Shown: in pieces, positions 43,507 through 50,912 of the stretch
How the letters are laid out: the number at the start of each line of letters is the position of its first letter
How positions within the stretch are numbered: the first letter of the stretch is position 1
From: Geitlerinema sp. BBD 1991-9
Lineage (GTDB): Bacteria > Cyanobacteriota > Cyanobacteriia > Cyanobacteriales > Geitlerinemataceae
Assembly: GCA_001657325.1 (NCBI GenBank)
Contig: LWRO01000006.1
Location: forward strand, 124,001 to 188,000
Direction of reading: 5' to 3'
Length of the DNA stretch: 64,000 nucleotides
Notes under the pieces: generated by a model
What the model was told of the DNA's origin: nothing
The model's input: only the letters and a program-made list of their open reading frames with translations
Databases searched by the model: none
Program-made: the position numbers and the translations under genes

Positions 43507-46455
43507 CTATCGCCAATTTCCCACCAACACGAAGGGAGACCAATAATGGGGGTTTTGATAAGCTTCCCCGGCTTCCCCGCGAATTAAAGCAATTTGTGCT
43601 TGTCGCAGGGCTTCCGCTTTGTTAAAGTCGTCGCGATCGCTGAGGGCATTGTAAAAGTATTGCATTAGCTGCGAGGTCGATCGATCGTTGACGTTCCACA
43701 GACTGCCGATAATGCTGCGAACGCCTGCACGAATGGCGATTCCTGCCATTCCTAACACTGCTCGATCGCTCTCTTGTGCTGTTTGACAAGCACTTAATAC
43801 CACTAAGTCGAGATCGTTGCGTCCGCTGGGATCGTCAACTTGTAAAATGTCGGCGAGTTCGGTCGATCGAAGCAATCGATCGACTACGATAAAGGTACTT
43901 TCGGCAAAGTTGCTAAACCGTCCGTGAGTTGCAATGTGTAAGATTGGATACTTGAGGGAATGGACACCCCGCTGCAAATTTTCGACGGTAAATGTTTCTT
44001 CAAAAAGCTGTTGCGTATCGGCGACTTCTTGAATTCCATTGAGTTCGTCGTCAATATATTTTAAGTTACTGAGTTGCGTTCCGGGTGCGATGCGAGTATC
44101 GTCGAGAACTAGGCTGTTAAAGTTTTGTCGCCCTGCGGCTAAAACGCGAATTTTGGGAGTTTCGAGACGTTTGGGAGCGAGGAGTTGTAAACTCGGCGCA
44201 ACAGCGATCGCGTACTTTTCAATTAAGTATCGTTCGCCGTCATAAAGGACAGACATGGGAACCGATCGCAATTGTCCATCTAAGACAAAGACGATTTGCG
44301 ACACCTCAGCGGCTTGTAAGTCTGTTTCGAGAGGTGCAATGATTTTTTGATAGGCTTGCTGTGCGAGAGATTTTAACTCAGATTTTTCTTTTAAAGAAAT
44401 CTCAAGAAATTCAAACGTCAGTCCGATCTCTCCAAACTCTCGGTAACGATAAAATCGATCGCCGCCAAAGTTTGCGATAATTTCTAGACGATCGAAAAAC
44501 AAAATTGCGTAAACTGTCGCGGTGTCAGAATCGATTTCAGTTAAATCGACGGGTTGAGTTTCTAAACAAGCGATTCCAAAAAAATCGTTGATTTCAGCAA
44601 TTTGTAACGCTTGAATTGTCTGGGCTGCGATTTGTAAAGCTTCTTGGGAAACTGCCTCGGGACGCAGCAACAAATCGGCGTATTCTCGATAGACGGGTTC
44701 GACGCGATCGCGGAAAGAAAAACGCGAGTCTGGATCGAGGGTGTTTAAATCTAATTGAATTATTGTTAGGATATCAAGTGCTTTTTTATAATAATTGAGG
44801 GTATTAAAATATATCGGTTCTAATTCTAAATTGATTGGATTCTGTTCTTTTGAAAAATAGCCCATTCTCCAATAAAGTCGATATAAAATCTCTCGTGTAT
44901 TGGCACGTTCAGCCCGTTCGATCGCCTGTAAAGTGATGAGTTTTGCCCTATCGAAATTTCGATCCTGTAAGGTGTAGAGACTCGCAAAGGCTTCTAAAAC
45001 GTAAGCTTGCGATCGATCGTCTCCTAACTGTTGCGCTTCCTCTTTCGCAAGGTTTAACTGGTTTTCGACTTCCACCAGCGAGAACCCTGGAACCGCAGGC
45101 GGTTCGGTGTCAGAAAGGCGATCGCAGTTTAACGCCAAACACGCAAACTTGACACGAGCCTCAACGGTGAAGCGACTGGGGGGAAGGGCTGTCAGTTGAG
45201 TTTGAATCGATCGAACCCGAGTTTCAATATCGTTCGGGTGGATTTCCTCTCGGGTTAAATCCCGAATTAACGCCAAAGCGTTCAGGTTCGATCGCAATTG
45301 CAAGGCAGGAGACGCGGTGCGAACCTCGGCGGCACGATGGTAATATTGAAGCGCCCGGTCAAACGCGATGTCTTCGTCTTGTTGAATGTTGAGTTCCCGA
45401 GCGCGACGGGCGGCGGAGGCTTCCGTATTCCCCAAATCGAGGGAGACACGAGCGATCGACTCCTCAGACGCGATCGTTTCAGCCATCTCCAAACTGCGTT
45501 TTAACACGATACGCGATCGATCGAATTCTCCGATCGATCTCAACCCATTCGCCAACCCCTGCAACACCGCCACAGAAACCGCCGGATTTTCCCGAATATC
45601 GATCGATCGCTGTATCTCTACAACATCCTCCATCGCCAAACCCTGACACTGCTCACTGCTCACTGCTCGCTGCTCACTGTAAAGTGGCGCATCCAACACC
45701 TGCAACACCGTATCGCAAGCTCGTCGCGCAAAGCCCATCCCCTGCAACGCTTGCGCCTGATTCAACAATCCCCCCGTCACCCCTTCCTCGTCAGAAAGGC
45801 GGCGGTAAATCTGCGTTGCATCGCGCCAACTGTCGTAAGCCAACTCCATTTCCCCGAGGGCGAATTGCAACTGACCCCGCGTGTTGAGAATGGCGGCGAA
45901 AATGCGTTGCGTACTTTCATCACGCCTTGCGTCGGGAACGCCGATGAGTTCGAGGCTAAGATCGATCGCCGTTCTCGCCGCCTCCCAATTTCCGAGTTTT
46001 TGATGCGTCAAACTGAGATAATTATGCGCCAATCCTCGAATCGATCGATGGATTTCACCATCGTTTAACAGCGGTTCGAGAACCGACAATGCCGCCTCGT
46101 AGTCGTTATTAATATAGTGCGATCGCCATCGATCGAATTGAGAATCGATCGTCTGTTGTTGCACGGTTCGCGGATTACCCATGCCCTCATCCCCCAACCC
46201 CTTCTCCCAATATTGGGAGAAGGGGAGAAAATCCATCCCCCCTACCCCCCTTTCAAAGGGGGGTAGGGGGGATGGATTTAGGGAGAGGGCTGCATCATGG
46301 GGATGCACTCCAGGCGATCGCGAACTCGCCACTTGTGGAACCATCACCGTAAACGCCGCGATCGCAATCCCCAAAACAACCCAACGCCACAATATTTTTA
46401 CAACACTTAAAACAGCAACGACTCGATCGAAAAATACAACCCCTCTTCTTGCCAC
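43507..46455 (-). CDS. TPR-CHAT domain protein
   Basis: A 982-residue protein. A hydrophobic N-terminal segment (WVVLGIAIAAFTVMVPQVAS) is probably a signal or anchor. A linker made of palindromic repeat DNA follows, then a long TPR region (about 80-560; IRGLAHNYLSLTHQKLGNWE). The C-terminal CHAT domain has histidine in YPILHIATHGRFSN and cysteine in LVVLSACQTAQES, and ends WSPFVLVGNW. GTG 46455 is chosen because GAGGGG precedes it; TTG 46497 and TTG 46392 are alternatives. It overlaps the 3' end of the upstream secretion gene by 49 nt, which suggests coupled translation. It may act outside the cytoplasm. Confidence 0.85.
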   Translation of the reverse strand: MARRGVVFFDRVVAVLSVVKILWRWVVLGIAIAAFTVMVPQVASSRSPGVHPHDAALSLNPSPLPPFERGVGGMDFLPFSQYWEKGLGDEGMGNPRTVQQQTIDSQFDRWRSHYINNDYEAALSVLEPLLNDGEIHRSIRGLAHNYLSLTHQKLGNWEAARTAIDLSLELIGVPDARRDESTQRIFAAILNTRGQLQFALGEMELAYDSWRDATQIYRRLSDEEGVTGGLLNQAQALQGMGFARRACDTVLQVLDAPLYSEQRAVSSEQCQGLAMEDVVEIQRSIDIRENPAVSVAVLQGLANGLRSIGEFDRSRIVLKRSLEMAETIASEESIARVSLDLGNTEASAARRARELNIQQDEDIAFDRALQYYHRAAEVRTASPALQLRSNLNALALIRDLTREEIHPNDIETRVRSIQTQLTALPPSRFTVEARVKFACLALNCDRLSDTEPPAVPGFSLVEVENQLNLAKEEAQQLGDDRSQAYVLEAFASLYTLQDRNFDRAKLITLQAIERAERANTREILYRLYWRMGYFSKEQNPINLELEPIYFNTLNYYKKALDILTIIQLDLNTLDPDSRFSFRDRVEPVYREYADLLLRPEAVSQEALQIAAQTIQALQIAEINDFFGIACLETQPVDLTEIDSDTATVYAILFFDRLEIIANFGGDRFYRYREFGEIGLTFEFLEISLKEKSELKSLAQQAYQKIIAPLETDLQAAEVSQIVFVLDGQLRSVPMSVLYDGERYLIEKYAIAVAPSLQLLAPKRLETPKIRVLAAGRQNFNSLVLDDTRIAPGTQLSNLKYIDDELNGIQEVADTQQLFEETFTVENLQRGVHSLKYPILHIATHGRFSNFAESTFIVVDRLLRSTELADILQVDDPSGRNDLDLVVLSACQTAQESDRAVLGMAGIAIRAGVRSIIGSLWNVNDRSTSQLMQYFYNALSDRDDFNKAEALRQAQIALIRGEAGEAYQNPHYWSPFVLVGNWR
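45647..45679. repeat. Heptamer repeat inside the TPR-CHAT gene
   Basis: Units of CACTGCT repeat four to five times in frame, coding on the minus strand for part of YSEQRAVSSEQCQG. This is the reverse complement of the AGCAGTG repeat upstream of obgE. Confidence 0.8.
46183..46289. repeat. Nested palindromes within the TPR-CHAT gene
   Basis: Two perfect palindromic elements are embedded in coding sequence: 46198-46225 (28 bp, centre AATATT) and 46231-46277 (arms of 23 bp, 1-nt loop). Outer arms GCCCTC (46183) and GAGGGC (46284) enclose both. On the minus strand they encode LNPSPLPPFERGVGGMDFLP and FSQYWEKGLGDEG with no stop codon. Confidence 0.85.
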
Positions 46456-49400
46456 GAATCCCCTCGATCCTCCAAATCCATAAAAGGAATACCCCAATCT
46501 ACCGCAAGACGCAAGCGATCGCCCAAACGAAATCGTAACCCCAACCCCGCCGAAACCAACGCATTTCGTTCGGGATCGTTGCGATCGTCGCTATTCCAAA
46601 CCACCCCCGCATCGACAAACGGAACGATATCCAATTGACCGTTCCACTGCGGAATTTGCAACACCGGAACGCGCAATTCCACCGATCCTAAAATGCCATT
46701 GTCCGCCAACAGTGCATCTTGGCGATAGCCTCGGGCGGTGGAGCGTCCCCCCAAACTAATTTGCTCGAAGGGAACCAGCGCATCTGGGGTTAGCTGTACG
46801 TCGCCGCGAACCACCAACAGGGAATTTCCGACGTTTTCCAAACGACGCACCCACTGCGTTTGTCCCCGCCACGCGAAAAACTGACTGTCCGGTTCGTTGT
46901 CGTTCGTCGTCGCATCGAACCAGTTCACCCCCAAATTAAACTCCGATCGAACCGCAAAAACATAATCGTTCCCTTGTCGCGTCCAATCTTGAAAAAAACG
47001 CAAAACTGAAATCTTTGTTTCCCCATCGTCCTCTGCACCGGGAGACAGGGGAAAATCAAAACCGAGAATTGACGTTTGACTTTCCCGACGGGAGGCGGTG
47101 AAACCGATGGCGAATTCCTCAAAGCGATTCCGCTGACTCCCCACCCCTGGAACTTCCACCACCCGCAGCAGCGGTTGACGAACCGTTAACTCGTACTGGC
47201 GAGAATCCGCTTCGATGTCTAAAGAACGAAAGGGCGATTCCACCACTTCGTTCGCCCCCGTGTCGTAGCCGAAACGCAAGGTTCCCCCAGAACGGTTGAA
47301 AGGGACGGTGTAGCTAACTCCCCATTCGTCGCTTCCGTCGGTGTGGGCGTAGCTGACGCGGGCGGTGTCGCCGAATCCGAGTAAGCTGTTGAATTGCAGG
47401 CGAGCTTGTTGGCGGAAGGTTCCCACGCTTGGGGAGCGGTTGTTGTCGAGGCGGATGTCGGCGGTGATGGGGGAGGCGGCTTCGACGTTGAGGCTGAGGC
47501 GGTTGGTTTCCGGGCGCACTCCGGCGGACAGTTCGGCGGCGACGGTGACGATTCGATCGTCGAGTTGCAGGAGTTGCAGGGTTTGCAGGAGTTGGGTTTG
47601 GTTGACGAGATCGCCGGTTTCGACTCCCAAGCGGGAACGGACGTAACTGGGGTTGAGTCGTCCGCGAACGGATACGTCGATGTCTTCAAATTTCGATTCG
47701 GAGGCTTGCAGAACGAGGGTTCCATCGCGGCTGGTTTGGGGCGGAACGTACACGCCGGAGGTGATGTAGCCTCGTTCTCGGTAGTGTTGGCTGAGTTCGT
47801 CTGCGGCTTGTTGGACTTCGGCGAAACTGAGGGGGCGATTTCGGTATTTGTCGAGGATTCGATCGATCTCTTCGGGTTCTAAAACCGTACTCCCTTGCAG
47901 TGTTAAATCGGAAATCGTCACGGTGTCGGGGACAGTTCCCGGTTCGAGGTGGTCGAGATTGGAATTATCGAGATTGGATTTCTGGGTGTTGGGTTCGCAG
48001 GAGCCTGGTTGTTGGAAACGATCGTTCGCGTTTTGCGGAGCGGGTAACAGTTGGAGATCGCCGTTTTCGTTAATTATCCAGCTTTGGGCTTCGATGAGGC
48101 GTTCTACGGGTTCTTGGGTGACGGGTTCGTCCGTTGCATCGTCGGTGTTTTCGTCGAGGGGAATTGCACGAATATCTTCCCAAGGTTGGCTTCCCGTCAA
48201 CGGATCGTTGGGTGTGGGGGGTAAGCCGCCCCGTCCCGTTTGGACGAACTCGCTGTCTCCGCCGCCGATTTGACAGGGATTTCGATCGAGCGGTGCAGCG
48301 GCGAAACGATCTTCGAGTTCAACGAGTCCTTGCGTGGGATCGACATCGGGAGCGACAATTTCGACGGTTCCGTTGAGTGCGGGGTCAGTCAGAGAAATGG
48401 CGGTAATGAGGTTTCGATCGTCGGTCGTGGGGTCGAAATTCAGTAGGTTTTCTTCGCCAATTTCCGCAACCAGTTCTTCTCGGCTGAGGGGTTCTAATCC
48501 TAAAACGATATCGTCGGCGGTAATGTCGATCGCACCGCCGCGTCCGTTGAAGGCGTTCGCTGCAATGTTGCTGTTTTCTAATCCGACGAGGGTATTTGTA
48601 TTGATGGTGATGTTCCCTCCCGTTCCCGCTCGATCTGGTTGTCCCGAAGTGGTGGAGATTTGAGCGTTTTCGAGGAGGCGAACGTCGTCGGCGTTGACGA
48701 ATAAATTGCCCCCTTGGCCGAAAGCGGCTTCGGCGGTGAGTGCTCCGCCGTTTTCGATGCGGAGATCCTCGGCGTTGAGGGTGACGTTTCCGGCGAGTGG
48801 GCTTCCGACATCGGCATTGACGCTAATCTGGGCGAGATTTGCAATGGTTAGAAAAGGGGTATTAATGGTGACGTTGCCCGCTTCACCGGGATCGATTTCT
48901 TCGGGAAAACGTCGTTCCCGAACCGCTCGAGCAGTGATGCGACTGGGAAGCAAACCATCCTCGTCGATGATGGGATTGAATGGGGCATTAGAGGGCAGAG
49001 AGACGGGATCGTTCGATCGACCGCTCACCTGTACTGACTCAGAAGCCGTTACCGTAACGCGGCCACCATTTCCCGCCGCAAAGGTATCGGCAGAAATTGC
49101 TGCCCCATCGCGAACCGTCAAGCGTCCCGTCGAAATGTTTAAATTGCCGCCATTCCCCGCCATGTCAGGCTGAATTCGGCCTTGAGATTGAACGACAATA
49201 CTGGTGGGCGAGTTGTAGTCAGGAGAAGTTCCCACGAGATCGATCGACTCGTGAGCCGTAACCGTTACGTTGCCGCCATCCCCCGTGCCAAAGGCGATCG
49301 CCTGAATTTGTCCACCGCTATCGAGGGCGAGTCGATCGACGTTCACATTAATATCTCCCCCCGGTTGTGCGCCCCGAGTTGAGGCAACGATCGAAGCGCG

Positions 49401-50912
49401 ATCGCTCACCCGTAACTCGCTTGCTTCGATCGTCAAATCCCCTGGCGCTCCAAGGTTTGCCGGTTCAACTTGACGAGATGGAACCGCTCCCACATCGAGA
49501 CGAGTCTCTTGAAAATTCTGTTCAATTCCTCGAACTTCTACCAAATCCGCCGCGATCGAAATATTTCCACCGTCTCCATACCCCATTGTCATCGCGCCGA
49601 CAATACCGCCATCGCACACTAACAACTCTCGGGTTTCGATAACGATATTTCCCGCGTTCCCCGTTGCTTGAAACTCGATCGTTTCCAGAGGCTGCACTTG
49701 CGAGAGAATACTGCTTCGTCGAGTCCCATCGATCGAGATACCAATGCCATCGACGAGAACCGTATCGGCGGAAATTCTCAGATCGCCACCGTTACCGGAG
49801 GCTGCGGTTCCTGTCGAAATCTGCGCCCCGTTGCGAATCGAAAGGTCGATCGTATCGATGAAAAGATTGCCCGCATTTCCACTCCCCTGTGTTTGCGAAA
49901 ACAATCCAGCGGACTCCAACAGCGGAAGTTCGCCAGATTCCGAACCGTTTTCAGAACCCGGTTGTACGTCTCCTGTCAGATCGATCGTTGCAGCCGAGAT
50001 TACAAACGTCCCACCATCTGCATCGAAAGTACTGCTTGTAATCCCAGAGTCAGAGATGAATAGCTGACCCGATCGAATTTGGATATCGCCACTTCCCATT
50101 TCCGGGTTGCTGTCTGATGCGTGCAAACCGCTGGCATCAACCACAGAATTTTCAGACAAACGAATGGTTCCAAATTGGTCTATCCCGTCGTAACCCAAAC
50201 GATAACCGTTAGAAACGGCATTCAAACTCACCGTTCCCGAACCCGCCACGCTCCCGAGTTCAATACGTCCGCCGAAATTTGTCGCGTTACCCCCTTCAAA
50301 TAGGAGATCGCCGCCAGCAAAAATCAAGCTGTTGTTCGAGTTCACGGTTAACCCAGTGGGTAAATTAATGCTATTTAGACCCTCTACAGAAGCTTGAGAG
50401 GTATTGGTAATCGAACCGGGGGTTTCGCCAAACTGCAAACCCAGGGGAGCGGAGACAGACAGCAGCGGCGAAGGTTGACGAGCATCGAACTCGCTCCCGT
50501 CGGCGAATTGTATGCTGTCGGCGGTGGTAGCGACGAACGAACCTCCGATTTTCAGTTGAGCGTTTCGCCCGAAAATAATGCCGTTGGGATTGAGGAAAAA
50601 CAGACTCGCTCCCTGAGTTTCTAAAATTCCCTCAATTCGCGAAATATTGTTTCCCGTGATGCGGCTAAAAATCGTTTCGATTCCCGCGTCATTTTCAAAC
50701 AACGCGGTCGCGTTTTCGGGAATTGAGAACTCCTCGAAACTGTGAAATAGGTTATTTCCCGCAGCCGTTCCCCCCTGAATGCGGAAGGTTTCGCCTTCCA
50801 AAGTGACGGTGGAGTTTTCTAGGAGGGTGGCATCGGGGACGATTTGCGCCGTGACGGGTGTGGCGATCGAAAAGATTGCTAGAGCGAGGGTAGATGGGGA
50901 TAGGGAAGACAT
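46407..50912 (-). CDS. Fused two-partner secretion protein: FHA-type passenger plus POTRA/FhaC barrel
   Basis: A 1501-residue outer-membrane protein. A signal peptide (LALAIFSIATPVTAQ) leads to a TPS domain of filamentous-hemagglutinin type (about 25-170; FFLNPNGIIFGRNAQLKIGG near 107). A beta-helix of repeats follows to about 860 (AGNVTINTPFLTIANLAQIS). After a disordered stretch come two POTRA-like domains (from about 998, DLTLQGSTVLEPEEIDRILD; then DIDVSVRGRLNPSYVRSRLG) and an FhaC/ShlB-type barrel (about 1150-1501), with the loop GGRSTARGYRQD. Normally passenger and transporter are separate genes. ATG 50912 is preferred over TTG 50939. The CHAT gene overlaps its 3' end. Confidence 0.88.
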   Translation of the reverse strand: MSSLSPSTLALAIFSIATPVTAQIVPDATLLENSTVTLEGETFRIQGGTAAGNNLFHSFEEFSIPENATALFENDAGIETIFSRITGNNISRIEGILETQGASLFFLNPNGIIFGRNAQLKIGGSFVATTADSIQFADGSEFDARQPSPLLSVSAPLGLQFGETPGSITNTSQASVEGLNSINLPTGLTVNSNNSLIFAGGDLLFEGGNATNFGGRIELGSVAGSGTVSLNAVSNGYRLGYDGIDQFGTIRLSENSVVDASGLHASDSNPEMGSGDIQIRSGQLFISDSGITSSTFDADGGTFVISAATIDLTGDVQPGSENGSESGELPLLESAGLFSQTQGSGNAGNLFIDTIDLSIRNGAQISTGTAASGNGGDLRISADTVLVDGIGISIDGTRRSSILSQVQPLETIEFQATGNAGNIVIETRELLVCDGGIVGAMTMGYGDGGNISIAADLVEVRGIEQNFQETRLDVGAVPSRQVEPANLGAPGDLTIEASELRVSDRASIVASTRGAQPGGDINVNVDRLALDSGGQIQAIAFGTGDGGNVTVTAHESIDLVGTSPDYNSPTSIVVQSQGRIQPDMAGNGGNLNISTGRLTVRDGAAISADTFAAGNGGRVTVTASESVQVSGRSNDPVSLPSNAPFNPIIDEDGLLPSRITARAVRERRFPEEIDPGEAGNVTINTPFLTIANLAQISVNADVGSPLAGNVTLNAEDLRIENGGALTAEAAFGQGGNLFVNADDVRLLENAQISTTSGQPDRAGTGGNITINTNTLVGLENSNIAANAFNGRGGAIDITADDIVLGLEPLSREELVAEIGEENLLNFDPTTDDRNLITAISLTDPALNGTVEIVAPDVDPTQGLVELEDRFAAAPLDRNPCQIGGGDSEFVQTGRGGLPPTPNDPLTGSQPWEDIRAIPLDENTDDATDEPVTQEPVERLIEAQSWIINENGDLQLLPAPQNANDRFQQPGSCEPNTQKSNLDNSNLDHLEPGTVPDTVTISDLTLQGSTVLEPEEIDRILDKYRNRPLSFAEVQQAADELSQHYRERGYITSGVYVPPQTSRDGTLVLQASESKFEDIDVSVRGRLNPSYVRSRLGVETGDLVNQTQLLQTLQLLQLDDRIVTVAAELSAGVRPETNRLSLNVEAASPITADIRLDNNRSPSVGTFRQQARLQFNSLLGFGDTARVSYAHTDGSDEWGVSYTVPFNRSGGTLRFGYDTGANEVVESPFRSLDIEADSRQYELTVRQPLLRVVEVPGVGSQRNRFEEFAIGFTASRRESQTSILGFDFPLSPGAEDDGETKISVLRFFQDWTRQGNDYVFAVRSEFNLGVNWFDATTNDNEPDSQFFAWRGQTQWVRRLENVGNSLLVVRGDVQLTPDALVPFEQISLGGRSTARGYRQDALLADNGILGSVELRVPVLQIPQWNGQLDIVPFVDAGVVWNSDDRNDPERNALVSAGLGLRFRLGDRLRLAVDWGIPFMDLEDRGDSWQEEGLYFSIESLLF

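Follow-up and report, generated by a model that had tools for sequence, protein, structure and literature searches.

A two-partner secretion passenger and its TpsB transporter encoded as one chain in Geitlerinema and related cyanobacteria

In two-partner secretion (TPS, type Vb), the passenger TpsA and the transporter TpsB are normally two separate proteins. Type Vd proteins carry a patatin passenger and a single POTRA domain, and type Va autotransporters have a 12-stranded barrel without POTRAs. A 2012 review notes in one sentence that beta-helical passengers occur in TPS fusions; its example is Tery_3487 of the cyanobacterium Trichodesmium erythraeum, a "TPSS gene fusion", citing Arnold et al. 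2010 (PMC3297439). Going by that sentence, the fused TPS kind is already known though uncharacterised; our literature search beyond the review found no further paper on fused TPS systems. In the stretch of DNA analysed here (the window; 64,000 nucleotides of Geitlerinema sp. BBD 1991-9), one gene likewise encodes a beta-helical TPS-type passenger and a TpsB barrel, the resemblance to Tery_3487 being limited to what its one-sentence description gives. An earlier note on this DNA had called the design unusual. The fusion itself was borne out; the word "unusual" has to be softened, since such a protein had been named in 2012.

Architecture and comparison with type V systems

The fused gene lies on the minus strand, a point missing from the earlier note, and is an uninterrupted, stop-free ORF from ATG 50912 to TAA 46407 encoding 1501 residues. 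The features of the locus are listed in Table 1. In agreement with the earlier note, ORF translation, Pfam matches and structure models place a signal peptide, a TPS domain, a beta-helix, POTRAs and an FhaC/ShlB-type barrel in one frame, and both the NPNG motif of the TPS domain and the RGYR motif of barrel loop L6 (residue 1394; 46722-46733) are present. The n-region of the signal peptide is neutral in the window protein, with no Lys or Arg, in contrast to the orthologues in the alignment.

Table 1 Features of the fused locus (positions in the window).
Feature	Position	Strand	Basis and remarks
Giant surface-type protein, 2737 aa	51569..59782	-	Upstream of the fusion, same strand; subtilase, P-domain, DUF4114, SBBP, Calx-beta and C-type lectin domains
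Signal peptide, residues 1-22	50847..50912	-	Sequence; cleavage probably after VTA-Q; start ATG 50912, alternative TTG 50939
TPS secretion domain, residues 22-278	50079..50849	-	Pfam PF05860 E 4e-59; TIGR01901; Foldseek; NPNG at 108
Beta-helix passenger, residues 279-855	48348..50078	-	AlphaFold models; Foldseek EtpA, HxuA
C-terminal anchor region of passenger, residues 856-972	47997..48347	-	Alignments and models
C880, first Cys of conserved pair	48273..48275	-	Cysteine counts in fused proteins
C972, second Cys of conserved pair	47997..47999	-	Alignment, cysteine counts; matches last residues of split TpsA
Fusion junction/linker, residues 973-998	47919..47996	-	Alignment to split locus L103 and to split TpsB leaders
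POTRA1, residues 999-1072	47697..47918	-	Pfam POTRA_2 E 2.6e-20; model
POTRA2, residues 1074-1146	47475..47693	-	Model secondary structure, alignment to CdiB and FhaC; missed by Pfam
16-stranded TpsB barrel, residues 1147-1501	46410..47474	-	Pfam ShlB, model, fold search
TPR-CHAT (caspase-like peptidase) gene, signal sequence	43507..46455	-	Pfam CHAT E 2.3e-59; probable GTG start 46455

Two overlapping AlphaFold models were prepared. The model of residues 640-1501 (44 aligned sequences, mean pLDDT 76.9) begins in the last part of the beta-helix, which a low-confidence stretch separates from two POTRA units and a barrel of 16 strands. The two consecutive beta-alpha-alpha-beta-beta units correspond to the two POTRA-like domains that the earlier note had proposed, while Pfam detects a single ShlB-type POTRA and matches ShlB over residues 1139-1461 (E 2e-30). 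CdiB is the nearest solved fold, at Z 30.4 (484 residues, rmsd 5.0), with FhaC next at Z 29.6; the sequence search was concordant. The model of residues 1-991 (mean pLDDT 70.7) shows a beta-helix up to approximately residue 855 and disorder beyond, with EtpA, HxuA and the HMW1 secretion domain as the nearest structures; for the TPS domain, the Foldseek matches were the secretion domains of EtpA, HMW1, HxuA and FHA. The anchor region (residues 856-972), homologous to the extreme C-terminus of split TpsAs, is predicted to be mostly disordered with a beta-hairpin at residues ~944-956. The pLDDT of the linker is very low, and the path of the chain through the barrel is not visible in either model. 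Within the linker (residues 973-998), neither an internal signal peptide nor a Pro-rich TpsB leader was seen.

The passenger half of the protein has the TPS domain (here an N-terminal PF05860 domain), the beta-helix and the C-terminal cysteine pair of the type Vb pairs HMW1A/HMW1B and HxuA/HxuB, and the transporter half has their two POTRAs and their 16-stranded barrel, with the FhaC/CdiB fold. These pairs, however, consist of separate polypeptides anchored only by a disulfide loop, whereas in the window protein the putative loop is followed by a covalent link within a single ORF that is conserved in the fused state. The presence of a passenger, a POTRA and a 16-stranded TpsB-like barrel in one polypeptide is shared with PlpD of Pseudomonas aeruginosa and would suit a type Vd autotransporter. 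Such an assignment is nevertheless very improbable: PlpD combines a patatin passenger with a single POTRA, while the window protein has a TPS domain with a beta-helix, no Pfam match to a patatin domain and two POTRAs, which upholds the distinction from type Vd drawn in the earlier note. The split proteins most closely related to it, moreover, are ordinary TpsBs. Classical type Va autotransporters also carry a beta-helix passenger N-terminal to their own barrel, but that barrel is 12-stranded and lacks POTRAs, in contrast to the 16-stranded Omp85/TpsB barrel with two POTRAs found here. The window protein lacks one defining feature each of type Vb and type Vd, and its anatomy suggests that it would operate in cis in the manner of type Vb.

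Distribution, selection and origin of the fusion

Baaleninema simplex PCC 7105, a second independent assembly, contains the whole fused gene with 74% full-length identity, and the junction at 47.9-48.2 kb is colinear between the two genomes; the frameshift or assembly join near 48 kb that the earlier note had considered is not found. A query restricted to the junction (residues 861-1075) was searched against 391 genomes of the order. Counting open frames of at least 888 codons among the matches listed, the match continued without a gap from the end of the passenger into POTRA1 in at least 27 ORFs from at least 24 of the 391 genomes, representing six families. Homologues that carry both halves in a single gene, for which the earlier note had proposed a search, are thus established. 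Two further genomes, beyond the 24, have truncated or doubtful fused copies. In a phylum survey of 386 genomes, those of the best matches listed that are fused fall only in this order. Nothing at the window locus speaks for an assembly join, a frameshift or a sequencing artefact, although broken copies occur in other assemblies (L148/L238, L102). Because colinear fused ORFs recur in two dozen genomes, we rejected this explanation as barely conceivable.

Between the window and B. simplex genes, synonymous substitutions predominate in each domain (omega 0.10-0.37) except the signal peptide, which is the most divergent part (omega near 1 over 21 codons). The omega value was 0.12 over residues 861-975 and 0.22 over residues 970-998, the latter from only 24 aligned codons, and the junction therefore looks to be under purifying selection.

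Two candidates were set aside. L074 (genome G348) was not counted as fused; it has merely a TPS fragment ahead of its TpsB, a signal peptide and partial TPS domain leading straight into a complete TpsB, which is probably the scar of a tpsA-tpsB deletion. A 2362-aa frame in genome G021 (L102:6831-13919) has the appearance of a TPS-barrel-CHAT triple fusion, but it is without POTRA1 and its last barrel strand enters the TPR-CHAT frame; it is probably a broken or mis-assembled copy.

Nine of the 80 named loci are fused, one of these with a broken frame. In fifteen loci, tpsA lies immediately 5' of tpsB on the same strand, often with an overlap of 11-20 nt. The split loci retain the order tpsA-tpsB-CHAT, and their tpsA stops where the fused chain continues. 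Specifically, L103 (genome G038) has the three genes consecutively, with tpsA and tpsB in the same frame and a single stop between them; its tpsA ends in NPDSCQKS, the counterpart of which in the fused chain, ahead of POTRA1, is GSCEPNTQKS. The split TpsBs carry a Pro-rich segment (median 102 residues) N-terminal to POTRA1 that is wholly missing from the fused proteins. From these adjacent or overlapping split relatives, comparison of the sequences indicates that the fusion arose through loss of the tpsA stop together with the signal peptide and Pro-rich leader of tpsB.

The tree of 15 fused rows was best resolved with one fused clade, which had the higher likelihood (AU p 0.53). With 27 fused rows, a minimum of three changes was needed and L237 (genome G502) was placed among split rows, yet a single clade was not rejected (p 0.40); the 26 rows without L237 fitted better as one group. 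These results favour one main origin, with a second origin in G502 being possible.

The conserved cysteine pair

Passengers of this kind are almost cysteine-free. Exactly two cysteines are present in the mature chain of 25 of the 27 distinct fused proteins, the second of them 13-38 residues before POTRA1, and their spacing is mostly 74-106 residues (241 in one protein with an insertion). The two exceptions are the window protein, with an additional C433, and the broken L102. Split TpsAs elsewhere have exactly two cysteines in 35 of 41 cases, and in nearly all of them the last is only a few residues from the C-terminus. In the genome of the window, most intact TPS passengers end with such a pair, which 32 TPS ORFs carry.

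The disulfide loop of HMW1 is much smaller than the 92-residue loop that C880 and C972 would form. In HMW1 and HxuA, a C-terminal disulfide loop is unable to pass the pore and holds the C-terminus in the periplasm (PMC3297439; PMC5422565). The C880-C972 pair matches a plug of this type, with a disulfide that would form by analogy. From the last residue of the beta-helix (855) to C880 there are 25 residues, which by our estimate would suffice to span the barrel. Given the C-terminal cysteine loop and this span, the fusion would have linked the neighbouring POTRA to a C-terminus that lay in the periplasm beforehand. The conserved pair ahead of POTRA1 strengthens the case that the passenger may remain tethered.

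CHAT genes and the proposed export pathway

The start of the CHAT gene overlaps the 3' end of the fusion gene by 49 nt (46407-46455), and the same overlap occurs in many distant genomes at both fused and split loci (e.g. L103:10588-13278). A CHAT gene is located downstream in 16 of 18 fused rows, among which some genomes appear twice. The figures are 11 of 15 for the adjacent split loci and 12 of 60 for the remaining TpsB loci. The His and Cys motifs of CHAT are intact. This gene order suggests that CHAT is the third gene of a tpsA-tpsB-CHAT operon. A processing or regulatory role of the peptidase would be a guess, and no functional paper on TPS with CHAT, cyanobacterial ones included, was found in the literature searched. 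Four single-chain proteins in the genome of the window combine an N-terminal TPS domain with a C-terminal CHAT domain (L217:1923-8015, L218:2591-6811, L219:2338-6984 and L220:2268-5714); in these, the peptidase domain itself may be an exported passenger.

As for the wider neighbourhood, fused relatives belonging to the same family likewise have a giant ORF upstream, and Phormidium-type genomes have a convergent cluster of DUF1822, CHAT-CHASE2 and DUF928 genes beside the fused locus (L099:1744-6614 and counterparts).

We infer from this anatomy, with a probability of roughly 0.7, a type Vb two-partner system that was fused into one chain and acts in cis, so that an already anchored passenger became covalently tethered. 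The single signal peptide would direct Sec export, and the C-terminal barrel would be inserted in the outer membrane with the two POTRAs remaining in the periplasm. The TPS domain would bind the POTRAs of its own chain, and the passenger would exit through the barrel from N- to C-terminus as a hairpin and fold outside into the beta-helix (residues ~22-855). Transit would halt at residues ~856-880, because C880 and C972 would close a disulfide loop on the periplasmic side, from which the chain runs on into POTRA1, and the passenger would be kept on the cell surface as an adhesin or coat filament. The existing anchor of the split ancestor would have been made permanent by the fusion. Against this reading stand the much smaller loop of HMW1, the very low pLDDT of the linker, the additional C433 and the lack of basic residues in the n-region of the signal peptide. 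Neighbouring copies may also recognise one another in trans, and the passenger may be cleaved at a later stage.

Cleavage is known for the passengers of PlpD and FHA. The fusion could secure only 1:1 synthesis and targeting. After export the passenger would be cut, possibly by the CHAT protein encoded alongside, and would either leave the cell or stay bound non-covalently. The frequent and often overlapping CHAT genes, their intact motifs and the four TPS-CHAT proteins speak for this account, but CHAT accompanies split systems also, a cleavage motif was not recognised in the fused protein, and the cysteine pair points to retention; we consider it unlikely. The fused barrel might instead export in trans the many separate TpsAs of the genome, in which ~45 ORFs have a TPS domain, compared with three stand-alone TpsBs and the fused one; its own passenger would then serve as a plug or specialised stalk. 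This is distinctly improbable, as the three stand-alone TpsBs could serve the remaining TpsAs, the fused chain is without the leader of split TpsBs, and the pore would be occupied by its own passenger. Returning to the tethered cis-acting system, its placement in a distinct uncharacterised type V class, namely disulfide-locked, covalently tethered TPS proteins that a co-encoded CHAT peptidase trims or releases, is a speculative proposal that we think rather unlikely.

To what is known of the fused TPS kind, the present analysis adds how widely the fusion is spread, that it derives from an operon, and that it comes with two POTRAs, a cysteine anchor and a link with CHAT. The fused protein provides a natural test of how TpsA crosses the outer membrane, in that a passenger attached to POTRA1 must keep its C-terminus on the periplasmic side, as has been proposed for HMW1 and HxuA. 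The overlapping split operons illustrate how two separate chains can give rise to a secretion system of one chain, and the analysis links CHAT peptidases with TPS systems in cyanobacteria.
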